IMG/VR virus record: IMGVR_UViG_3300046514_000858
Span: 29,746 to 93,745 of that record
Source: a virus
DNA length: 64,000 nt
Strand: one strand, 5' to 3'
Part shown: piece after piece, positions 4,504 to 56,893 of the stretch
Layout of the letters: every line of letters starts with the position of its first letter
Numbering within the stretch: position 1 is the stretch's first letter
The notes under the pieces: generated by a model
The model's database searches: none
Seen by the model: the letters and a program-made list of their open reading frames with translations, nothing else
What the model was told of the DNA's origin: nothing
Translations under genes and position numbers: made by a program

Positions 4504-4513
4504 CGCTTTTTCC

Positions 4514-14246: not shown

Positions 14247-14518
14247 AGAAGATCGAGATGTTCTACGTCCAGCGCAGCACGGACGGCCACGTTTTGTACA
14301 TCCGCAAGGCTCCCAACAAGCGGTGGGAGGCGAAGATCGACCAGATCCACGGGTCGGCGTACCTGTTCGAAGACATCGCGCCGGGCACAGGGGGCTGGTA
14401 TTTTTTCGAGCCCGTCGTTTCTCCGACACAGATCAAGAACATCGACGTCACAGAAGTATCGCTCGTGGCGAAAGCGCCACACGGAAAAAGATTTCTATTG
14501 AAAGGAGATAGGTCATGA
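14243..14518 (+). CDS. Hypothetical protein sharing the EVSLV-K motif with the scaffold-like gene (91 aa)
   Basis: GTG start coupled to the preceding gene. Beta-rich. Residues near the end (VTEVSLVAKAPHGKRFLL) match the N-terminus of the protein at 21518 (IDEVSLVDKAANRRAFAV), a segment known from phage prohead-protease/scaffold proteins. The resemblance is short and may reflect a common protease-recognition or capsid-binding tag. Confidence 0.55.
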   Translation: MKKIEMFYVQRSTDGHVLYIRKAPNKRWEAKIDQIHGSAYLFEDIAPGTGGWYFFEPVVSPTQIKNIDVTEVSLVAKAPHGKRFLLKGDRS

Positions 14519-14949
14519 AAAGAGGTTTCACGCTCTTTGAAGGCATGGTTGTCTTCGCCGCCGTCGCGATCCTCGCACTCCTCTTCCTGCCGTTCGTCCT
14601 GTGCCTCTTCCCGTCCGGCTGCGATCCGTCGTATTCCGACGGCGACCGGGTCGGAGTGGTGACGAAGCTGAGCCACAGGGGCCTCAGCATGAAGAGCTGG
14701 GAAGGCCAGCTCAACGTGGGGAGCACGAGTACCGACGGGAACGGTGTCGCCGTTCCCACCACATGGGCGTTCAGCGTCGAAGACGAGGCCGTCGTGCAGC
14801 GGCTCAAGGAGGTCGCCCAGACCGGCCAGCGAGCAACGCTCCACTACCACCAGTATCTGGTCAAACCGTGGCGATTCGACACGGAATACGTGATCGACAG
14901 CGTGGACGTCGAGAAACCGGACGGCACGAACAAGAGCCTCCGACACTGA
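14515..14949 (+). CDS. Membrane protein with prepilin-like N-terminus (144 aa)
   Basis: N-terminus KRG-FTLFEGMVVFAAVAILAL has the layout of a class III (prepilin) signal: basic leader, Gly at -1, Phe at +1, Glu at +5 and a 20-residue hydrophobic helix. The C-terminal half begins DGDRVGVVTKLSHRGL followed by SWEGQL, a pattern found in many uncharacterised bacterial and phage proteins. Acts at the inner membrane; cleavage by host prepilin peptidase is an inference. Preceded by AAAGGAGA and followed by a strong terminator. Confidence 0.65.
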   Translation: MKRGFTLFEGMVVFAAVAILALLFLPFVLCLFPSGCDPSYSDGDRVGVVTKLSHRGLSMKSWEGQLNVGSTSTDGNGVAVPTTWAFSVEDEAVVQRLKEVAQTGQRATLHYHQYLVKPWRFDTEYVIDSVDVEKPDGTNKSLRH

Positions 14950-14965
14950 AGTACGAGTCAACCGA

Positions 14966-15000
14966 AGCCCGGGGATGCAAAGTCCCCGGGCTTTTTCTTT
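14966..15000 (+). terminator. Rho-independent terminator
   Basis: AGCCCGGGGA and TCCCCGGGCT pair around TGCAAAG, followed by TTTTTCTTT. It separates the left-arm genes from the head module. Confidence 0.85.
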
Positions 15001-15025
15001 GCCCCGCACCCATACCGCAGGTGCG

Positions 15026-15037
15026 GTCCAAGATGGT
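15026..15037 (+). promoter_or_regulatory. P-C element
   Basis: GTCCAAGATGGT directly before the ATG at 15038 (5 bases after GTCCAAG). First P-C element of the head module. Confidence 0.6.
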
Positions 15038-15169
15038 ATGCTCCGCGCCATCGGTCGGAAGGTCGCCATCATCGCGGCGACCATCGTGCTCACCGCCTTC
15101 ATCTTCGCGTTCGCGACGGAGTTCTTCCGGGCCGTCTCGCGCACCAAGCAGGATCTGCAGGTGCCCTGA
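15038..15169 (+). CDS. Small single-span membrane protein (43 aa)
   Basis: Start fixed by the P-C element. One hydrophobic helix (about residues 9-27) between a basic N-terminus and a charged C-terminus. Its stop overlaps the terminase ATG (TGATG), so the two are coupled. Location is unusual for a holin; it might be a membrane anchor or an inhibitor peptide. Function unknown. Confidence 0.5.
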   Translation: MLRAIGRKVAIIAATIVLTAFIFAFATEFFRAVSRTKQDLQVP

Positions 15170-16965
15170 TGAAGATCACCCCGCAGATCCTCGCCAACGA
15201 CGACCGCATGACGGCCGACGAGGTGGACAAGATCACCGCGGCCTACGCCGGGAAGACCCCCGCCCAGATCGTGGCCAAGGATGAGAAGATCCTCCTCCAC
15301 TACCTCAAGAATCCGCCCCAGCGCGAGATCGAGCTCTACACCTTCCTGACCGCGCTGACGCATGAGCCGATGCCGTGGCAGTCGATCTGTGAAGACCACT
15401 GCACGCCTTGGGATTTCATCTGGTACAGCTACCGGGTCGACCTGCCGCAGTTCCGGGAGAAGACGTCCCGCCATCTCATCTACGTCGGCCCCCGCGGGGG
15501 CTACAAGACCCTGTCCGTGGCGAAGCTGATCGCCGCCGAGCTCCTGCTCAAGCGCGGCTGTTGGACCGTCGGGATGGGTGCCATCGAAGCGCACGCCAAG
15601 CGCACGTACCAGTACGTTCAGCGCTACCTGTCCCACCCAGTGCTGCTGAGCCTCAAGGCCGCCGAGCTGATGACGATGGCCGAGACCAAGATGTGGAACG
15701 GCTCGGTCTACAATCAGGTCTGCGCGACGTGGGCGGGCGTGAACTCCCAGCACCCGCACAAGATGCGCACCGAGGAGAACGACCTCATCTCCGACCCCTT
15801 CATTCTAGAAGAGGCGAAGATGATGCCGAGCTCGCACGGCAAGCTGCGGGCGCACATGTCCTACGTCTCCTCGCGCAAGTTCGAGGACGGGATCATGGAC
15901 CAGCTCGTCGCCAACGCCGATGCCAAGGGCTACGACTACATGATCTCGTGCTACAAGGACTCGGCCGAGCAGTGCACCGAGGCTCGGCACGGTGAACGCG
16001 CCGTTGCGCCGCTGGAGGTCGAGGATCTGGAAGACCCCACCAAGACGGTCATTCTCCCGCCCGACAAGATTTTCAAAAACTGTGTAACCTGCCCGATCCT
16101 GCCGTCGTGTCAGGGCGACCTCGCGCGCGCGCACGGGGCCGTCGCCATCGACGACGTCATCTCCGACTGGCGCGTCCTCGACCGCGACGTCTGGATGTGG
16201 CAGAAGGAATGCAAGCGCACCCGGTCCTCCGCGACGTTCTTCCAGTTCTGGAACGAGCATGTGCAGGAGGGCGATTTCAACTTCCGGCCGGAGTGGGGCC
16301 CCGTCGATCTCTCCTTCGACTTCACCGGAGGCGGCGAGGATCCGACCGTCATGGGCGTCTGGCAGACCGACCCCGTGAACGACAACGATTTCATGATCGG
16401 CGAGAAGGTCTGGGACGGCGCGAAGCTGGCCGACTTCGTCTTCGCCGACGCCATCGAATATCTGCAGAAGCTGGGCGTGCAGTCCATCCGCAACATGATG
16501 GGCGACTCGGCCGCCCAGACGTGGATCAACGAGCTCAACAGCAAGATCAACCCGGCGACCGGCAAGGAGTTCTTCCACATCAAGCCGGTCAAGAAGATCG
16601 AGCGGGTCGAGGGCTGGAAGCTGATGCGCCAGCGGGTCCGGGACAATTCCGGCTGGCACCACATCTTCGCGAACAAGAAGGAGTGCCCGCTCTTCTGTGC
16701 TGAGGTCCGGCGGGCGAAGAAGCACAAGACCATCAAGGACGACATCCCCAAGAGCTGCTCCGACCACTCCCTCGACCAGTGCCGGTACCGGCTGGTGGAG
16801 CTACGGTACAGCGGTCTCCGGCAGCCCAACATCCGATTCGTGGGGGAGGGGCACACCTACCGAAGTGACCCCGCAGCCATCGCCGACCAGCGGTCCAAGG
16901 ATTCAGCGAGCGGTGCAGGTCTGACCCGCATGCTCCACCTTGACCCTGATCTGGACGACGAGTAA
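15169..16965 (+). CDS. terL: Terminase large subunit (598 aa)
   Basis: ATPase Walker A GPRGGYKT at residues 107-114 in the N-terminal domain, then a Cys cluster (CVTCPILPSC, about 305-315) seen in one lineage of phage terminases, then the RNase-H-like nuclease domain starting near LSFDFTGGGEDP with its first metal-binding Asp. It pumps DNA into the prohead through the portal and cuts concatemers. Overlaps the portal start by one base. No small terminase gene was recognised upstream. Confidence 0.9.
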   Translation: MKITPQILANDDRMTADEVDKITAAYAGKTPAQIVAKDEKILLHYLKNPPQREIELYTFLTALTHEPMPWQSICEDHCTPWDFIWYSYRVDLPQFREKTSRHLIYVGPRGGYKTLSVAKLIAAELLLKRGCWTVGMGAIEAHAKRTYQYVQRYLSHPVLLSLKAAELMTMAETKMWNGSVYNQVCATWAGVNSQHPHKMRTEENDLISDPFILEEAKMMPSSHGKLRAHMSYVSSRKFEDGIMDQLVANADAKGYDYMISCYKDSAEQCTEARHGERAVAPLEVEDLEDPTKTVILPPDKIFKNCVTCPILPSCQGDLARAHGAVAIDDVISDWRVLDRDVWMWQKECKRTRSSATFFQFWNEHVQEGDFNFRPEWGPVDLSFDFTGGGEDPTVMGVWQTDPVNDNDFMIGEKVWDGAKLADFVFADAIEYLQKLGVQSIRNMMGDSAAQTWINELNSKINPATGKEFFHIKPVKKIERVEGWKLMRQRVRDNSGWHHIFANKKECPLFCAEVRRAKKHKTIKDDIPKSCSDHSLDQCRYRLVELRYSGLRQPNIRFVGEGHTYRSDPAAIADQRSKDSASGAGLTRMLHLDPDLDDE

Positions 16966-21880: not shown

Positions 21881-21987
21881 GCCGCCCTCGCAAATTTTCA
21901 CATCGACACCTCATTGAACCAACCGCATAGCGGGTATGTGCCCGCGCGGTCACGTCCTTAGACTCCAAGCAGCCGACGAGAAAAATC
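21881..21987 (+). other. Leader of the major capsid gene
   Basis: About 107 bases without an ORF. Apart from a small GCGGGTATGTGCCCGC hairpin I see no P-C element and no terminator, so the capsid gene is probably transcribed from the P-C element at 21501. Confidence 0.4.
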
Positions 21988-23346
21988 ATGGACCTCAAGA
22001 AGATTCAGGACGAGATCGCGCAGACGATGGCCGAAGCGCGCAAGCAGATCGAGAAGAAGAACGCCGGTCAGGGCTCCTTCAACGCCGAGGCGTTCGAAGC
22101 GAAGTTCATGAAGGCGCTCGCCGACCGCGACGCCATCCACGCCGCCGAAAAGCGGAAGGCCCCCTTCATCATGGAAGAGGAGCCCACCAAGCCCCAGCCC
22201 CGCGTGCTTCTGGAGAAGTCCGAGCGGCCGGAGGTCAAGGAGTTCCAGAAGTTCAACGACGACTGCGTCATGCTGGCGTCGCTGACCCGGAAGCACCCCA
22301 CCACGCTGGAGTACTTCCAGAAGAACAAGGACCGCTTCCTCGACGAGCGCGGCAGCACCGAAGTCGCCAAGGCCATGGCCGCCGCGACCGGCGGCTCCGG
22401 CGCGGACTGGGTCCCGACCGAGTTCAGCTCCGATCTCTACGACCGCGTCCGGCTTGACGCCGTGATCGCGGGGCAGTTCGCCGAGATCCAGATGCCGACG
22501 CCCATCTACAAGCTGCCCACGGGCGACACCGATCCGACCACGTATCTCACGCCCGAGAACACGTCGGACACCCCGAACCTGTACCCGGCGTCCACGCCCT
22601 CGACGGGCAACGTCACCCTGACCGCGTCGAAGCTGACCACGAACATGGTCTTCAGCGACGAGATCACGGAGGACTCGATCATCCCGATTCTGGAGTACCT
22701 CAAGAACCGCCTCGCGAAGTCCATGATGTACACGCTGGAGGACGCCTACCTGAACGGCGACAACTCCACGACCCACATGGACGCCGACGTCACGGTTTCG
22801 ACCGACGCCCGCAAGGTCTGGAAGGGCCTGCGCAAGCTGGCGCTGGTCTCGAAGGACACGTCCTTCTCCTCGTGGGCTCCCGCGGTGGTCGCCACCGGCA
22901 TCGGCCTGCTCCGCTCCATGCGCTCGAAGATGGGTCGCTACGGCACCCTGCCCAGCAAGCTGGCCTACATGGTCGGCGTGCGCGGCCTGATCGCGCTGCT
23001 GAGCATGCCCGAGATCATGACGCTGGAGAAGTACGGCCCGCAGGCCACGATCCTGACCGGCGAGATCGGCAAGGTCGACAACATCTCGGTGCTCGTCTCC
23101 GAGAAGTTCCGCGAGGACCTGAACGCGTCCGGCTTCAACGACTCGACGACCAACGTCCGCGCGGCGATCCTGCTCGCCCACCTCCCCGCCTTCGTGCGCG
23201 GCACGCGGCGTGGACTCCGGGTCCGGCCGTGGGTCGACCCGCGCTCCGGCACCCAGAACCTCGTGCAGGACTGGCGCGGCGACTTCCAGCCGGTCTTCGC
23301 CACGGGCCAGCCCTACGTGGTCAAGGGCGTGGACTGGGGCATCTGA
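21988..23346 (+). CDS. Major capsid protein, HK97 fold (452 aa)
   Basis: First 110 residues are a charged coiled-coil delta-domain likely removed by the protease. From about residue 130 the HK97 pattern follows: GGSGADWVPTEFSSDLYDRVR, LTASKLTTNMVFSDEITEDS, the A-domain stretch PSKLAYMVGVRGLIALLSM, and a C-terminal GLRVRPWVDPRSGTQN. Length matches family members with a delta-domain. It builds the shell. Confidence 0.9.
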   Translation: MDLKKIQDEIAQTMAEARKQIEKKNAGQGSFNAEAFEAKFMKALADRDAIHAAEKRKAPFIMEEEPTKPQPRVLLEKSERPEVKEFQKFNDDCVMLASLTRKHPTTLEYFQKNKDRFLDERGSTEVAKAMAAATGGSGADWVPTEFSSDLYDRVRLDAVIAGQFAEIQMPTPIYKLPTGDTDPTTYLTPENTSDTPNLYPASTPSTGNVTLTASKLTTNMVFSDEITEDSIIPILEYLKNRLAKSMMYTLEDAYLNGDNSTTHMDADVTVSTDARKVWKGLRKLALVSKDTSFSSWAPAVVATGIGLLRSMRSKMGRYGTLPSKLAYMVGVRGLIALLSMPEIMTLEKYGPQATILTGEIGKVDNISVLVSEKFREDLNASGFNDSTTNVRAAILLAHLPAFVRGTRRGLRVRPWVDPRSGTQNLVQDWRGDFQPVFATGQPYVVKGVDWGI

Positions 23347-23374
23347 TCCCGGCTCTGCAACCAAGTCACTAAGA

Positions 23375-23417
23375 CCCCGGGTCTGTCCAAGTGGATGGAC
23401 CCGGGGTTTTTCTTTTT
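23375..23417 (+). terminator. Terminator with a P-C string in its apex
   Basis: CCCCGGGTCTGTCC pairs with GGATGGACCCGGGG (14 bp, two wobbles) around AAGT, followed by TTTTTCTTTTT. It ends the capsid transcript. GTCCAAG at 23385-23391 lies in the upper stem. Confidence 0.85.
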
Positions 23418-23433
23418 CATTGCAGAGCACCGC

Positions 23434-24240
23434 ATGACGCTATACGCCTGCCTGAACGTCTATCAGGAGGAAGCGCTCCTCCCTGACTGCCTCCGCTCAA
23501 TCCGTCACGTTCTTCCGCAGGCCAAGATCATCCTGATCGACGGGGCCTATGCGTCGTGGGTCCGGCACGTCCGGATCGAAGCCGCCGTCGAGCTGTCGCT
23601 CGGCAACACCGGCATCGGCAACGACATGCTGGCGCGCTTCGTCAGCGCCGAATCGACCGACCGCACCATTGAGATCGCCAAGTCCTTCGACGTCGAGCAC
23701 ATCGTGATGCCGAAGACCCAGTGCATGTGCGGCGGCAAGAAGTTCGACTACGGGTACTACGAGAAGGGCGCGTACCTGCCGTGGCCGACCGAGTGGGAGA
23801 AGCGCAATCGATTCTTCGAGTTCGGCAAGAACGGGGACTACTACTTCATCGTCGACGGCGACGAGCGCCTGCGCGGCACCCTGCCGGAGCTCAAGGAGGA
23901 CCACTACAACGTGATGCTCCAGCGCGACGACGAAATGGGGGCCTATCCCGTGCAGCGCGTCTTCAAACACCAGCCCGGCATCAAGATGGAGGGCGCGCAC
24001 ATGGCGGTCTGGGTCGACAGCCCCGCGGGCCCGCGGCTGCTGCGTCGCCTAGATCGCAAGGACAAGCAAGGCAACGTGATCGAGAAGTCCGACGCCCACC
24101 TCCTGCAGGGCATCACCATCGACCATCTCTTCAACGAGCGCGGCTCGACCGATCAGGTCCGGCACATGGCGAAGGGCGCGTATTACCGGCATGGCCTCAG
24201 CAAGGAAGAGGAAGGCTTCCGTCAGAAGTTCGACGTATGA
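23434..24240 (+). CDS. GT-A family 2-like glycosyltransferase (268 aa)
   Basis: Starts YACLNVYQEEALLPDCLRSI, the typical GT2 opening, followed by ESTDRTIEIA and the metal-binding D-x-D motif in FIVDGDERL. A Cys pair (CMCGGKKF) is embedded. It transfers a sugar from a nucleotide sugar. Its place between the capsid gene and the head-tail genes suggests a virion protein as acceptor. Overlaps the next ATG. Confidence 0.8.
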   Translation: MTLYACLNVYQEEALLPDCLRSIRHVLPQAKIILIDGAYASWVRHVRIEAAVELSLGNTGIGNDMLARFVSAESTDRTIEIAKSFDVEHIVMPKTQCMCGGKKFDYGYYEKGAYLPWPTEWEKRNRFFEFGKNGDYYFIVDGDERLRGTLPELKEDHYNVMLQRDDEMGAYPVQRVFKHQPGIKMEGAHMAVWVDSPAGPRLLRRLDRKDKQGNVIEKSDAHLLQGITIDHLFNERGSTDQVRHMAKGAYYRHGLSKEEEGFRQKFDV

Positions 24241-24806
24241 CCGAGCCAATTTTCACGATTCAGGTCTCGGGCACGGTTGAGCTCATCGCCAAGCTGCAGC
24301 AGCTCGCGTACCTCCCGAAGTCGCCCCGCATGCGGGCGCTGCTGGAAGACGCGGGCAATGCATACGTCGTGCTCGCCATGCAGGACGTGCCCAAAGCGAC
24401 CCGCTTCCTGAAGGCGTCGATCAACCATCAAGTCGAGGGCTGGGGCAGCGACAACCCCGGCGTTCGGATCGGCGCGGGCGGCCCGGGCGCGGGCTACGCG
24501 TACTACGTCGAGGTCGGGACCCGGCCGTCGGTCCGCTTCGCTCGGCAGCGGCGCTTCATGCACTGGTTCATGGAGGGCGGCAAGACCCTGCAGGTCCCCT
24601 TCGGGCCCCGCGGCATGACCGCGTACGGCGTCTCCATCGCCAGCGGCTCGGCCGAGAGCGTCTTCGCCAAGAAGGTGCGCCACCCCGGCACCCGGCCCCA
24701 GCCGTTCTTCTTCAAGCAGATGGAGATCATCGGCCCGCGGTTCCTCGAAGCTCTGGCGCGCCTGATCAACGAAGACATGGCAGTCGGGGGACCCTCACCC
24801 TCCTGA
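24237..24806 (+). CDS. HK97 gp10-like head-tail/tail completion protein (189 aa)
   Basis: Pattern YAYYVEVGTRPS then HPGTRPQPFFFKQM near the C-terminus is that of the HK97 gp10 family. ATG overlaps the glycosyltransferase stop. It probably acts at the head-tail joint or tail end. Confidence 0.75.
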   Translation: MTEPIFTIQVSGTVELIAKLQQLAYLPKSPRMRALLEDAGNAYVVLAMQDVPKATRFLKASINHQVEGWGSDNPGVRIGAGGPGAGYAYYVEVGTRPSVRFARQRRFMHWFMEGGKTLQVPFGPRGMTAYGVSIASGSAESVFAKKVRHPGTRPQPFFFKQMEIIGPRFLEALARLINEDMAVGGPSPS

Positions 24807-24811
24807 AGAGG

Positions 24812-24825
24812 GTCCAAGGAAGTAG
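24812..24825 (+). promoter_or_regulatory. P-C element
   Basis: GTCCAAGGAAGTAG followed by ATCGTAGGAGC, as at 20680; ATG at 24841. Confidence 0.65.
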
Positions 24826-31344: not shown

Positions 31345-32021
31345 TGAACCGGGAGGACTTCCTCTTCCCGGCCGGTACCGTCGCCGCCCGGCCCCGGCGG
31401 AGGGGTCTGGCCCGTATGATGGTGCTGGACCGCGCCACGGGCGATTTAACGCATCGTACGGTCCAAAACCTCCCAGAGTACCTTTCCGGCTGGGAAACGT
31501 GGGCAAACGCCTCCTACGCAGCGCAGCACCCCAATCCAGAGCTGCACCCCCTCTACGCCGCCGTTCCGGGGTCCCACGCCACCCCCAGCGCCGGGATCCC
31601 CCTGCCCGAGGATGTGGTCAAACGGCTGGAAATCAAGACGTTCACTCTCCACATCGGCGGTCCAAGAGATCAGCCGGACATTCGCCAAGGATTCAAGACC
31701 GGGGTGGGCTGGCGGGAATGGTACCAAATTCCCGCCCCGCCCAAGACCCCGGTCGCTGCCATCGGAACGACGGCGGTCAAGGCCATGGAGACGTGGGCTC
31801 GAACCGGCCAGCTTGAAGGCTGGAGCGACCTCTTCATCCAGCCCCCCTTCGAGTTCAAGGCTGTCGGGAAGCTGCTGACGAATTGGCACTTTCCCGGCGA
31901 GCCGCTGCTGGCGCTGACCTGCGCCTTCGGCGGATATGAATTTGTGCGTGAGGCATACGAGGCGGCTGTGGCCGAGAAGTATCTCTTCTCCTGCTACGGC
32001 GACCGCCTCCTGATCATCTGA
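31344..32021 (+). CDS. Tail-module hypothetical protein (225 aa)
   Basis: Overlaps both neighbours by one base (TGATG). Trp-rich in the second half (GWREWYQIPAPP, WSDLFIQPPFEFK). Position between Dit and hub genes suggests a tail-tip component. No family recognised. An internal GTCCAAG at 31661 is within codons and is not considered a promoter. Confidence 0.55.
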   Translation: MNREDFLFPAGTVAARPRRRGLARMMVLDRATGDLTHRTVQNLPEYLSGWETWANASYAAQHPNPELHPLYAAVPGSHATPSAGIPLPEDVVKRLEIKTFTLHIGGPRDQPDIRQGFKTGVGWREWYQIPAPPKTPVAAIGTTAVKAMETWARTGQLEGWSDLFIQPPFEFKAVGKLLTNWHFPGEPLLALTCAFGGYEFVREAYEAAVAEKYLFSCYGDRLLII

Positions 32022-35000
32022 TGAGTTGCACGGGTCCGGCCCCGACCTTCGCGGATATCGGCGATTGGGTCCTCTCTCACGACGGATCCGGTTGCGAGAA
32101 CACCGCCACCATCCACGTCAACGCCGAGTGCGGCTCGTCCGGCTACACCGTCAAGCTCATCCGCACCATCGACGGATCCGACACGACGGTCTACACGGCC
32201 TCCATCCCCAACGGACCTTTGACGGCGATGGCGTTCTCGTACGAGGACCTTCCGCCGTGCGGGCACAAGACCATCGAATACCGCTGGGAGATCCAGTGCG
32301 ACGGCGTCCTGCAGTCGACCAGCTACAACATGTCGACGGATCAGGGTGGCGGCCAGACCCTGACCGGGCACACGATCAATGTCTCCTCGTGCGAGGCCAC
32401 CGACCAGATCCGGGTGCAGCAGAATTGCGGCAACTGCGCGGCCACCCTCAAGCTCTATCGGTCGGCCATCAACTCCTCGGTCACCTTCGATCCGGGCGAG
32501 GTGATTTACACGGTTTCCGTCGGCGCGGGCGTGACCGACCAGACGTACTCGTACGGCGACACTCCGACCTGCGGCTACGGCCAGTACCACTACCAGTGGC
32601 GGCTCACGCCGTCCGATGACGCGGCGATCACGTCGGACGAGCAGACGTACGATCAGGAAACCGCCCCGACAGTCGACGGCTTCACGCTGACCCCCGCAGG
32701 TTGCGACAACGTTGCCAGCGTCCACGTTCTCCAACCCTGCGGCCGGTGCGGTGCGATCCTGAAACTATACCGCCACTTCAACGGCTCGGTGGCCTTCAGT
32801 CCCGACGAAGTCATCCACACGGAAGATGTGCCGCAGGGATTCTCCGATGCCACGTACAGCTACACCGACACGCCCTCTTGCGGTAAGGGAACGTGGCACT
32901 ACGCGTGGAAGCTGGAATGGGACAACGGCTCGACCGGCGTCGCGGAGCTCACGGCCGATGGCGCGCTCCCGGCAACCCTCGTCGATCACGAGATCGCCAA
33001 AGACGCCGAGTGCAACATCACCAACAAGATCAAGGTCACGAATCCCTGCCTCGCGTGCGCGGGCACGATCAAGCTCTATCGGAAGCTCAACTCCGCGCCC
33101 GCGGGCGTGCCGGGCGAGCTGATCTATACCGACGCCGTCCCGGCGGGGCTGATCGTCCACAAGCAGTACATCTACACCGAGCATCCGGGAGACGGGCACT
33201 GGTACTACGAGTGGTCGGTCGTGGATGTGGACGGCAACGTCGACGACACGCTGCCTCCCAAGGACATCACGGTCGACTGCACGGTCTACGTTCCCGCCCG
33301 GGTCACGCTGCCTTCGGATGCGTTCGAGAAGCAGGTCGTGCTCGTGCAGGTCACGGGATCCCCCGCGGGCGGGCTGATCTTCACCGACAAGCAGATTCTC
33401 AATCTCGCCGAGCAGCGGCTGGAGTGGTGGTACCACAAGAACGGCGGCTGTGCCTACTTCCGGATCCTGACCCACGAGTTCCTCGACGGCGCGGACTTCA
33501 CCGACGCGATGGATGAGTCGTGGGAGGTCCACGTCCGCATCAAGCTGGGCGGCGAGGACACGTACACGACGTGGTACCGCGGCGTCATCCGATCCATCAA
33601 GCAGCAGGAACAGGGCACCGACCTCTACATGGACGTCCGCGGCTACGGCTACGTCGAGATGCTCAACAACATCATGGTCCAGCGGGAGTATCCCGTGGGC
33701 ATGACGGTCAAAGAGATCGTCGACGACATCATCGACAAGGACGTCCGGCCGTGGACTCGCATCGTCCGGCCGAGCGACATCGACGTCACGAACGGCGACA
33801 GCGGCGTCGATCCGTCCGGCTATGCCATCAAAGACCGCGTCCACTTCGAGTGCTCCGCCCTCACCGCGATCAAGTTCCTCGCCGAGCTGCAGGGCGACCG
33901 TGAATGGGGAGTTGACGCCCTCCGGCGCTTCTACTTCCGGGCCAACAACTCGGATGTCGTGGCCAACTTCTTCCTGCTGAAGGACGTCATCGACCGCGTC
34001 GCGGGCGGCAAGATCCTCGGCCAGACCAACAGCTACAAGATGGCGGGCAAGTCCTTCGGCGCACGCGACTATCTCAAGGTGCGCGCGGACGTGACGGACG
34101 CCACCGCCGTGGGCCGCCGCGAGAAGGCAGTCGAGCTGCCGTGGCTGGAGGGCGACCTCGACGCCAGCCGCTGGGCCGACAACATCATCGGCATCAATCG
34201 GGGTGGGCAGCAGTGGGCCGTCATCACGAAGAAGCACGTCACCCAGCGCCTCGACGCCTCGCACCCGTTCGGCCGGGTCACCGTGTACGGCTCGGACATG
34301 TCGAACGACGTGCACACGTACGACATCGCCAAGATCCAGTACATCGAAGGCGGCCCGCGCGCGCCCGCGGAGGTGCGCGAGAAGGGCGTGCCCAAGAAGA
34401 CGGCCGACAACGACCAGCCGCTGAAGGTCCAGTATTACCTCGGCCACTACCCGAACGATCTGATCGACGAGCTCAAGGAAACCCTGCGCGACCAGATCGA
34501 GGCGCTCAAGGGCCGCCATAAGCAGTTCCGCTATCCCAACGACATCACGAACGAGGCGATTCTCATTCCGGGCAAGATCCCGGGCGAGATGAAGTTCTAC
34601 CACAAGGTTCCGGACGTCACGAACACGGATGTCCTGAACAGCGCCATCGACCTCTCGGACCCGACGAACCCCCGCGGCTCGCAGGTCGTCTGGATCGGCG
34701 GCCAGTGGGTGAAGGTCTCTGTCCGGCGCACGTTCACCTCCCTGTCCGGCGTCCGGGGCCTGTACATCGGCGAAGTCGCCTCGGTCATCACCGACATCAC
34801 CAACAGCTCGTTCGGTGTGATGTACTGGTGGAACGGGCTGGTCTGGGACGTGGTGGGCTCTGGAAGCGGCGGCGGTGGGGGCGGCGGGTCCTCCGTAGGT
34901 TCCGACCCTCCCACGACCATCCTTCCGGACGATGCGCCGAATCCCGGTGTGTCCGCGCTGGCCTCGCGCCAAGACCACCGTCACGGCATCGCCGCGGACG

Positions 35001-54600: not shown

Positions 54601-54694
54601 GCTCCCGTAGTTCAACAGCTAGAACCGCGTCAAAGGTCGCTGCACAAAAACAGTGGACATGAAGCTAATGCAGGTTCAAATCCCGCCGGGGGCT
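54601..54694 (+). tRNA. tRNA-like gene, anticodon unresolved
   Basis: GCTCCCG pairs with CGGGGGC (one G-U) as acceptor, TA linker, D arm GTTC-AACAGCTA-GAAC, and T arm GCAGG-TTCAAAT-CCCGC (one mismatch). The 44 bases between D and T arms do not give a normal anticodon stem-loop; GCTG/CAGT with an A-rich loop is the best hairpin. Length 94 would suit a class II tRNA. No encoded CCA. Confidence 0.5.
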
Positions 54695-54837
54695 CTTAGA
54701 AAAGCTGGGGCAGAACGGGTGCAACTCCCGGACCACAATGGACGTGAAAGCGTTCGTGGATGGTGTAACAGCAGCACTCCCCACACTCTAGATTTTACCC
54801 ATCCTGTGCTTGGGAGTGTGGCAGGCACAGGACTTAT
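54695..54837 (+). ncRNA. Structured non-coding spacer with T-arm-like and inverted repeats
   Basis: Contains CGGG-TGCAACT-CCCG (T-arm-like), a GTGT/GCAC D-arm-like hairpin near 54768-54784, CCACACTC...GAGTGTGG and CCTGTGC...GCACAGG inverted repeats. The elements overlap and could be alternative folds. They do not combine into a canonical tRNA; I see no credible protein gene. Confidence 0.35.
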
Positions 54838-54911
54838 CGGTGGGTCGTCTAAGATAGGACGCCGGGGTTCAGCTCCGGCAATGCAGGTCTCGATTCCTGC
54901 CCCATCGACCA
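54838..54911 (+). tRNA. tRNA with anticodon UCA (opal-reading) and encoded CCA
   Basis: CGGTGGG and CCCATCG form the acceptor, then A-CCA. D stem GTCT/GGAC, anticodon stem CCGGG/TCCGG with loop GTTCAGC, giving U33, anticodon UCA and purine 37. T stem GCAGG/CCTGC closes an 8-base loop containing TCGA. D loop is short and lacks GG, so it is not fully canonical. If functional it would read UGA, used as an ordinary stop in most genes here. Confidence 0.55.
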
Positions 54912-54926
54912 ATATTTATACTTTCT

Positions 54927-55009
54927 GAGACCGGCCGCGTGTATGTCGGCCAAATCTTGGAGCGAGCGGTGCCCGACCGGCCATGCGACGCGGTAGCACT
55001 AACGGTCTC
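54927..55009 (+). ncRNA. tRNA-sized structured RNA without T arm
   Basis: GAGACCG at the start pairs with CGGTCTC at the end (7 bp). Inside, GCCG-CGTGTATGT-CGGC is a perfect hairpin and GTGC...GCAC encloses another. No TTC-type T arm. A string CCAAATCTTG with AGCGA just downstream is shared with the element at 57.8 kb. Confidence 0.4.
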
Positions 55010-55021
55010 GCACAAACAATC

Positions 55022-55067
55022 AACCCCGGATCGGCTCGCGAGAGTCGCCCCGGGGTTCTTTGTTTTT
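55022..55067 (+). terminator. Rho-independent terminator
   Basis: AACCCCGG (55022-55029) pairs with CCGGGGTT (55050-55057), followed by CTTTGTTTTT. It ends the tRNA transcript before the next P-C element. Confidence 0.8.
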
Positions 55068-55089
55068 CATGCTCGCCTCCGTCTCCATT

Positions 55090-55103
55090 GTCCAAGGGTA
55101 TAG
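55090..55103 (+). promoter_or_regulatory. P-C element
   Basis: GTCCAAGGGTATAG, 3 bases before the ATG at 55107 (10 after GTCCAAG). Confidence 0.6.
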
Positions 55104-55106
55104 CAC

Positions 55107-55253
55107 ATGAAACTGACAAAAGAAGAAGCTGCGAAAGAACTCAACAACTTACGACTTGCTGCTGACCCAACACCAAACAACGAACGACTGATCTCTTCAC
55201 TTGAACTAGCCATCAAAATTCTCACTCCATCTCCGAAGCGCAAGCGTTCTTAA
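55107..55253 (+). CDS. Small helical protein, AT-rich gene (48 aa)
   Basis: A 48-residue frame directly after a P-C element: KLTKEEAAKELNNLRL, then NNERLISSLELAIKIL and a basic KRKRS end. Two amphipathic helices, no ribosome site. Codon use is far less GC-rich than in neighbours. The last codons contain a P-B string (GCGTTCTTA at 55244-55252). Function unknown; a DNA-binding or inhibitor peptide is possible. Confidence 0.6.
   Translation: MKLTKEEAAKELNNLRLAADPTPNNERLISSLELAIKILTPSPKRKRS
55244..55252 (+). promoter_or_regulatory. P-B string inside the end of the small gene
   Basis: GCGTTCTTA overlapping the stop of the small gene and about 95 bases upstream of the structured RNA. No start codon follows at 5-6 bases, so it could start a non-coding transcript. 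Confidence 0.35.
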
Positions 55254-55346
55254 AGACATCGGGGCATTAGGCTCATCGGACTCAGGTCCTCAACCGCCGT
55301 TCGCCCTACCACGACATTTTCACATTTCGTCACCGGTCTCTGAAAA

Positions 55347-55673
55347 TCTGGAAGTGGTGATAGGACCAAGCGCCGACCGAGGCAATAGCACTCGACCGCG
55401 CGGGGAGCCGGAGATCCTACGGAATAGGATCGCCTCAGTGGCCGACCGCCTGAACCTCAAGGTTCTGCCTAACGTGGAATACACCCGGATGCAATCCCGA
55501 GGTGCCACGGGGGACTCTGATCTATCTCGTAAAGCAAGGCCACATGGGGGCCGAGCGAGAGACGCGCAATACGTAGGGCCTGCGCGCGCGACAGCGTGAG
55601 ACTGAGACCGACGCCGATGACAGGGGATTGAGAATATCCCTAGAAGGCTACGTCCGAAATTTCCACTTCCAGA
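55347..55673 (+). ncRNA. Candidate large structured RNA (about 327 nt)
   Basis: TCTGGAAGTGG (55347-55357) pairs perfectly with CCACTTCCAGA (55663-55673), closing 305 bases. Inside are perfect hairpins GATCCTA-CGGAA-TAGGATC (55413-55431), GAACC-TCAA-GGTTC (55452-55465) and GGGAT...ATCCC (55624-55640). GGTCTC just outside (55335) and GAGACC inside (55604) could form a pseudoknot. Both candidate ORFs here have improbable compositions and no ribosome sites. GOLLD and ROOL RNAs are known next to phage tRNAs, but I cannot match either. Confidence 0.55.
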
Positions 55674-55819: not shown

Positions 55820-56503
55820 ATGAGCAACAAGTACGACGCCCCCTGTCGGGGCAGCGAATCCCTGAACCACTGCGCCGAGCACATGCAGTCGATCTTCAAG
55901 TGTTCGGAGGAGAAGGACGCCCTACTGCGTCTCTCCCACGCCGCGACCGAAGCATCCCAGAAGGCCCATGGCGACGACCTGCTGAAGGTCAGCAAGATGC
56001 TCGTCGACAAGGCCGTCCCCGCCCACAACGCGAAGGTCCGTGAGATGGCCGCCCTGCGCCTCATCAACGCCGATCTGGAGGTCAAGCTCAGCGATCACAA
56101 GGCCGCCGTGGGCGAGCTGGAGGACGAAAAGGACGACGTCCACATCGATCTGTGCGAGCAGAACCGCAGCCTGCAGCGCATCGTCGAGCAGCAGAACACC
56201 GAGCTGGCCGAAGATGCCAAGCTGATCGAGGAGGCCACCGCCGCCCTCAACTCGGTGAGCGACGCGCTCGACAAGGCCAACGAGCAGGCCGCGGAGCTCA
56301 TGGCGTTCATCGTCACCAACGAGCTGCTCGACAAGATGTCGAAGGAGGAGCAGTCCAAGGATCCCATGGACGTGGAGCTGCCCGACCGCGGCTTCGCGTC
56401 CGAGGTCGAAGACGCCCTGCAGTCCGACCAACCCCCGCCGCCCGATCCGGAGCAGGATCCGCGCCCGGAGCCCCCGGCCATCGACGGCGAAGGGCCGATC
56501 TAA
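55820..56503 (+). CDS. Coiled-coil protein (227 aa)
   Basis: Start at the ATG after TAGGAGA; an in-frame ATG further upstream lacks a site. A short Cys-containing N-terminus (CRGSESLNHCAEHM) precedes about 160 residues of acidic coiled coil and a disordered Pro/Asp/Glu tail (QPPPPDPEQDPRPEPP). No family recognised; structural or scaffold-like role possible. Confidence 0.65.
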   Translation: MSNKYDAPCRGSESLNHCAEHMQSIFKCSEEKDALLRLSHAATEASQKAHGDDLLKVSKMLVDKAVPAHNAKVREMAALRLINADLEVKLSDHKAAVGELEDEKDDVHIDLCEQNRSLQRIVEQQNTELAEDAKLIEEATAALNSVSDALDKANEQAAELMAFIVTNELLDKMSKEEQSKDPMDVELPDRGFASEVEDALQSDQPPPPDPEQDPRPEPPAIDGEGPI

Positions 56504-56510
56504 GCCGACC

Positions 56511-56651
56511 ATGCGCCTCCCAGAGCGTCTGAACGCCGTGCTCACTGTGATCGCCTGTCTCCTCGCGGTGCTGGGCGCTCTGGGAGTTGTCGAGCTGGTG
56601 TGGTACTGGTTCATCCGATCCCTGTTCATCATGTGCGGAGGCAGCCCATGA
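56511..56651 (+). CDS. Small single-span membrane protein (46 aa)
   Basis: A 46-codon frame 7 bases after the previous stop, with a 25-residue hydrophobic helix (LTVIACLLAVLGALGVVELVWYWF) and a short Cys/Gly end. Its stop overlaps the next ATG (ATGA). Candidate small membrane effector or holin-like peptide. Confidence 0.5.
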   Translation: MRLPERLNAVLTVIACLLAVLGALGVVELVWYWFIRSLFIMCGGSP

Positions 56652-56893
56652 CCATCACGAAGATCGACCTCGCGCTCTGGACGCCCATGGGAGAGTGCGA
56701 CAGGCCCCACCGCCGGTCGTTGTGTGTGAACGGCAACTGGTACCACAAGGCTGGGAACGTGTTCGTGCATCTGGAGGGTTCCTTCACCCAGACCGAGCGC
56801 GGAGAGAAAGCGGCGCTCGTCGCGAAGGCGCTCGGCTACACGGTATTCACGTTCTCGCACAGTACGATTCAGTCCGAGGACGCGCGTTCCTAA
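56648..56893 (+). CDS. Hypothetical protein (81 aa)
   Basis: Coupled to the membrane peptide by ATGA; GGAGGC lies 8 bases upstream. Compact beta/alpha sequence with a paired Cys/His (CDRPHRRSLC). Ends with a P-B-like string GCGTTCCTA (56884-56892). Function unknown. Confidence 0.5.
   Translation: MTITKIDLALWTPMGECDRPHRRSLCVNGNWYHKAGNVFVHLEGSFTQTERGEKAALVAKALGYTVFTFSHSTIQSEDARS

Follow-up and report, generated by a model that had tools for sequence, protein, structure and literature searches.

Does the DNA between a cluster of tRNA-like genes and the next protein gene of an uncultured phage encode a structured RNA of its own? The source is a bacterial virus, known from environmental DNA alone, whose record (G000) is 93.7 kb long; the window, that is the whole stretch of 64,000 nucleotides that was analysed, corresponds to its positions 29746-93745. 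The record encodes a terminase, a major head protein, a DnaB-like helicase and a DnaE-type polymerase. The terminase has no match among isolate phages (tblastn), and no isolate-phage polymerase is more than about 33% identical to that of the record. An earlier note had proposed a large structured non-coding RNA at 55347-55673, possibly of a new class.

Surroundings of the element

The candidate RNA sits between the tRNA-like cluster and the gene at 55820-56503, all on the plus strand, and both a hairpin and a small ORF fall between the tRNA-like genes and the candidate:

54601-54695, plus strand: degenerate tRNA-like gene (Rfam; ARAGORN: Pro, agg)
54838-54911, plus strand: tRNA-like gene with encoded CCA and UCA anticodon (Rfam tRNA, 39.6 bits; ARAGORN at a lowered threshold: tRNA-SeC(tca))
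55014-55065, plus strand: terminator-like GC hairpin with A and T runs on either side, 3' of the tRNA cluster (24-nt arms, 79% complementary)
55107-55253, plus strand: 48-aa ORF, GC 43%, doubtful gene (homologues are identical copies only)
55347-55673, plus strand: candidate structured ncRNA, domain B (MFE, window ranking, no Rfam match)
55820-56503, plus strand: next downstream gene, 227 aa, coiled-coil-like by inspection

Both tRNA-like neighbours are real by Rfam, as the earlier note had supposed, and exceed the Rfam tRNA threshold when the region is scanned by itself. An intron-containing tRNA was rejected as merely a low-threshold ARAGORN artefact. The UCA anticodon at 54838-54911 is opal-reading. 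A genome-wide recoding of TGA to match this tRNA was rejected, since TGA ends 28 of 46 coding-like frames, more than any other stop. At two other loci, coding-like sequence continues past an in-frame TGA. At 14512-16962 a 145-codon coding-like frame is followed by one in-frame TGA and then by the terminase frame, possibly by read-through or as neighbouring genes sharing a frame; at 21931-24822 the major head protein frame ends in TGA and ~297 in-frame coding-like codons follow (a glycosyltransferase-like ORF), possibly by read-through or by chance. The hairpin at 55014-55065 was not called by a strict terminator scan. The only promoter-like match is at 55319-55347, and a transcription start there would fall inside the closing helix of the candidate RNA.

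Coding signal is absent from both strands of 55347-55673. The 81-aa frame on the plus strand and the 119-aa frame on the minus strand have a GC2 of 0.56 and 0.68, respectively, and a GC3 of 0.55 (GC by codon position), unlike the neighbouring genes (GC2 about 0.36, GC3 0.86-0.90), and neither frame matches Pfam or PHROGs. The suggestion that the element holds no credible ORF is thereby borne out, and translation of either frame is unsupported.

Predicted structure of the candidate RNA

The helices, hairpins and candidate pseudoknot strands of the element are the following:

55347-55357, plus strand: closing helix, 5' arm, 11 bp, TCTGGAAGTGG (perfect complement of 55663-55673; mean pair probability 0.97)
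55413-55431, plus strand: 7-bp hairpin GATCCTA/TAGGATC (pair probability 0.98)
55433-55443, plus strand: upstream strand CCUCAGUGGCC, which might pair with the GUAAAGC loop in an EGFOA-like pseudoknot topology
55452-55465, plus strand: 5-bp hairpin GAACC-UCAA-GGUUC with UCAA loop (fold prediction)
55473-55509, plus strand: hairpin CGTGG..CACCCGG / CCGaGGTGCCACG (pair probability 0.95-0.99)
55525-55562, plus strand: hairpin whose loop starts with GUAAAGC (55529-55535) and contains GGCCACAUGGGG (55538-55549)
55563-55586, plus strand: hairpin (fold prediction)
55571-55576, plus strand: ACGUAG, candidate pseudoknot strand with CUACGU at 55648-55653 (6-bp complement)
55623-55641, plus strand: hairpin GGGGAT/ATCCCT (fold prediction)
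55663-55673, plus strand: closing helix, 3' arm, 11 bp, CCACTTCCAGA (perfect complement of 55347-55357)

The perfect 11-bp closing helix described in the earlier note is exact, and it is extended by GAT/ATT (3 pairs) and GGAC/GTCC (4 pairs). Several perfect internal hairpins had been described as well, and these are present at 55413-55431, 55452-55465, 55473-55509, 55563-55586 and 55623-55641; the pseudoknot mentioned as possible is likely the 6-bp complement between 55571-55576 and 55648-55653. From the sequence, two pseudoknots are possible in the element, the other one joining 55433-55443 to 55538-55549 (11 bp, one bulge). This pairing is worth -17.5 kcal/mol in isolation, and enforcing it costs 2.6 kcal/mol.

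How far does this fold exceed chance? On the plus strand the element has an MFE of -127.5 kcal/mol and a z of -2.18, a fold that 3 of 100 shuffles equal; on the minus strand z is -3.1 and none of 100 shuffles is as good. Among 195 same-length segments per strand it ranks 4th (plus) and 8th (minus), a ranking based on 10 shuffles per segment; with a better shuffle mean (100 shuffles) the plus-strand rank drops to roughly 10th-12th, so that the plus-strand fold belongs to about the top 2-6% of the 195. The minus strand is at least as remarkable, so stability does not decide the strand, and the plus strand is preferred because the surrounding genes and tRNAs lie on it. Elsewhere in the window, the 327-nt segments 14762-15088, 23264-23590 and 31766-32092 reach z values of -3.5, -4.3 and -4.2, stronger than the candidate on the plus strand. 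Perfect 11-bp inverted repeats with a spacing of 100-500 nt number 8 in the window (10.6 expected), and the probability of one 11-bp repeat in the 1.26-kb non-coding gap is ~0.08. The structure is real and moderately better than chance, with boundaries that were picked after the fact.

A possible larger RNA

Another long-range helix abuts the element, and the 327-nt size may therefore be an underestimate:

54922-54934, plus strand: second helix, 5' arm TTTCTGAGACCGG, which would close a putative domain A upstream (complementary to 55333-55345 at 12 of 13 bases)
55333-55345, plus strand: second helix, 3' arm CCGGTCTCTGAAA, ending 1 nt 5' of the candidate RNA

The chance of such an abutting helix is 0.001 by shuffles, a post hoc value for a helix that was seen after the fact. 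Both long-range helices are present in the MFE structure of the 766-nt region, and the whole 766-nt fold has a z of only -1.54. In this model the candidate may supply the 3' domain of a longer RNA, ~750 nt in length, that begins 10 nt after the tRNA. The size of about 330 bases, below that of GOLLD and ROOL, thus holds for the element as delimited in the earlier note (327 nt), but possibly falls short of the full RNA. The complementary heptamers GAGACCG and CGGTCTC occur in two copies each in and around the RNA (54927, 55003, 55334, 55604); they have alternative pairings, whether local, within domain A or into the RNA, that could make a switch.

Search for families and relatives

Scans of 55347-55673 with the Rfam 15 covariance models, GOLLD and ROOL included, give no match either at gathering scores or with E limits of 5 to 10, and blastn against 50,697 phages returns short chance matches only. 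The claim that the element is distinct from GOLLD and ROOL is thus upheld by the model search. Relatives were sought in viral and genome collections via the UDPG-dehydrogenase-like protein, the 55820 gene, DnaE, the terminase and the 48-aa ORF. The yield consists of one other viral contig with an identical neighbourhood (L002/L005/L006/L100; 1331 bases over the region, 100%), one useful diverged relative (L007 = G001) and otherwise loci too distant to help. The diverged relative is 69% identical to the phage of the window in DnaE, 54% in the UDPG-dehydrogenase-like protein and 56-57% in the terminase. A covariance model of the RNA itself (R1), run over 289 kb and five viral records, finds itself only. 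Since the only copies are identical and L007 has no detectable one, compensatory changes cannot be counted, nor can the element be called a family. The proposal of a new class stands insofar as the element lies outside the catalogued families; as a class it is not established, the copies found being identical ones of a single virus.

The syntenic gap of the relative is L007:4421-4975, 3' of a tRNA-Ala, and is followed by genes for a coiled-coil-like and a short membrane protein and then by a small gene 34% identical to 56648-56893 of the window (E 2e-11). The order is the same in both phages: the primase/UDPG-dehydrogenase-like region, a tRNA, the non-coding gap and the common downstream gene. 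Synteny was called on the gene at 56648-56893, which lies further downstream than 55820-56503; the counterpart of the latter in L007 bounds the gap. In both phages the GC of the gap is lower than that of the nearest downstream gene. The L007 gap has neither blastn similarity nor a covariance-model match to the candidate, and its fold is unremarkable (z -1.25). Directly 3' of the CCA-ended tRNA, each phage has a compact helical element (54922-55012 and L007:4422-4509), and the two have the 11-mer GCGAGCGGTGC in common. The relative has two further small RNA-like features. At L007:4163-4193, GGGGCCGAGGGGTTCGAAACCTCTCGGCCCC forms a near-perfect acceptor stem and T-arm without a D or anticodon arm, resembling a tRNA minihelix (weak mascRNA match), and at L092:11953-12029 (G001:46952-47028) a CyVA-1 RNA (RF02965) scores 49.4 bits, above the gathering score. 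CyVA-1 RNA is absent from the phage of the window.

Comparison with GOLLD and ROOL

GOLLD and ROOL are phage RNAs found near tRNA islands that have elaborate folds, form RNA cages and have no settled function (PMC12286853). ROOL is encoded by phages and prophages, often by tRNA islands, and has pseudoknots (PMC12286853). The locus offers the same setting, with tRNA-like genes at 54601-54695 and 54838-54911 and, elsewhere in the window, phage genes for terminase, capsid and replication. Like GOLLD, the candidate is phage-encoded, near tRNA genes and elaborately folded, and it would be of similar size if the abutting domain A were included (~750 nt); unlike GOLLD, it has no cmscan match and measures 327 nt versus >800 nt in many GOLLD members. 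With ROOL it shares the phage origin, the nearby tRNA genes and candidate pseudoknots, whereas it gives no cmscan match and a solved ROOL member has 659 nt. Judged by sequence, the candidate resembles GOLLD and ROOL in position only and is a member of neither by the Rfam test.

An EGFOA-like RNA in the syntenic slot

Within the syntenic gap, L007:4683-4803 matches EGFOA RNA (RF02955) with 29.6 bits (E 0.003) at relaxed thresholds, the gathering score being 37.7 bits. We consider this match sub-threshold yet convincing. The segment keeps the strings that are conserved best, namely CCGUC-N-UAGU and GUAAAGCUA-N-ACCUGG. In our reading of the consensus, the EGFOA loop CUAGAC would pair with an upstream GUC(c)UAG, a pairing that is unmarked in the structure line of Rfam; in L007 both of its sides have changed, from c-G to G-C. 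A pattern made from the EGFOA strings and scanned over viral contigs finds only L104, L105 and the known relative L007. L104:659-783 and L105:12149-12273 (minus strand) score 68.9 bits with the EGFOA model and lie in phage-like contigs, with a terminase-like gene about 300 nt further downstream. The L007 segment has chance matches only in isolate phages and plasmids. Since L007 holds an EGFOA-like RNA at the same slot, the slot looks like a site for structured RNAs in this virus lineage.

Could the candidate RNA itself be related to EGFOA? It does have a hairpin loop that opens with GUAAAGC (55529), where a weak 4-bp stem encloses a 17-nt loop, together with the possible loop-upstream pairing. 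The rest of the loop differs from the EGFOA GUAAAGCUA-N-ACCUGG loop, and the 16-base EGFOA loop string has no match at this site with 3 mismatches allowed. GTAAAGC occurs twice in the 64 kb. Among the roughly 90 GTAAAGC sites that were scored, of which many are duplicate loci, this one shares the top value for loop-upstream pairing. The joint shuffle P for GUAAAGC and the 11-bp pairing is 2-3e-4, a post hoc value whose descriptor was chosen after seeing the sequence. The candidate gives no match to RF02955 at E<=10, and the whole record contains none either; once L007 is added to the EGFOA model and the filters are switched off, the motif scores 0.3 bits. Allowing up to one mismatch, CCGUC-N-UAGU is absent near the candidate, which is also about three times as long as EGFOA RNA. 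The resemblance is a lead, not homology.

What the element may be

The reading that we prefer, with a confidence of about one half, is that 55347-55673 is a real phage ncRNA: a compact multi-branched domain with its ends joined by a long helix, an orphan that probably acts in trans as a folded RNA and not as a cis regulator of the next gene. The plus strand would be transcribed from the tRNA-side slot, between the tRNA cluster and gene 55820. The closing helix would bring the RNA ends together around a multi-branched core carrying the hairpins. The fold might be locked by a pseudoknot between a loop and a strand, formed either by 55538-55549 and 55433-55443 or by 55571-55576 and 55648-55653. 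The partner bound by the folded RNA would then be a protein, some component of the ribosome or a second RNA, as supposed for other tRNA-linked phage RNAs.

It is rather unlikely, though still the likeliest of the alternatives, that the gap is neutral intergenic DNA, possibly decayed tRNA genes, with the chance-level structure of a GC-rich sequence and ends picked for a chance 11-bp repeat. The neighbouring tRNA genes do look degenerate, repeats of this kind occur window-wide at chance level (8 versus 10.6), z is only -2.2 with several other segments stronger, and no sequence is conserved with L007. Nonetheless, independent signals coincide in one small gap (the closing helix with P 0.08, the abutting helix with P 0.001 and a fold in about the top 2-6%), and idle stretches of 300-900 nt are probably rarely kept in phage genomes, yet both relatives retain a gap here. 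An appreciably less probable alternative makes the element one part of a new two-domain RNA class at 54922-55673, ~750 nt long, starting 10 nt after the CCA-ended tRNA and built from two long-range helices set end to end. L007 would then be built alike, with a helix that directly follows the tRNA and meets a second closing helix at 4510, around an EGFOA-like core; what is catalogued as EGFOA would be one piece of a larger superfamily of tRNA-linked phage RNAs.

Slightly less probable still is a strongly diverged EGFOA member, in which 55433-55443 pairs with the loop after GUAAAGC. In favour are the EGFOA-like RNA that L007 carries in this slot, with its compensatory c-G to G-C change in the loop-upstream pairing, and the joint P of 2-3e-4 for the motif and the 11-bp pairing. 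However, the motif search was post hoc, the candidate has no Rfam match at E<=10 and only 0.3 bits with the L007-extended model, and it is missing CCGUC-N-UAGU, which is retained in L104 and L007 despite the distance between these two. We regard as the least probable a leader that acts in cis on the gene with its start at 55820, be it a riboswitch, an attenuator or an element for processing. The element lies on the same strand and ends 147 nt before the start codon, and the L007 gap likewise precedes a gene of similar kind; but a strict scan finds no terminator-like site between 55673 and 55820, and Rfam types the EGFOA family of the L007 slot as an sRNA gene, not as cis-regulatory.

A trans-acting orphan RNA at 55347-55673 would be an unclassified RNA in a type of site that is already known; the most informative by-product is that L007 has an EGFOA-like RNA in this slot. 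If true, another unrelated RNA would lie at a site of the GOLLD/ROOL type, where a relative keeps an EGFOA-like RNA; this would suggest that structured phage RNAs generally settle at this position, and the unexplained EGFOA family would gain genomic context in an assembled phage.
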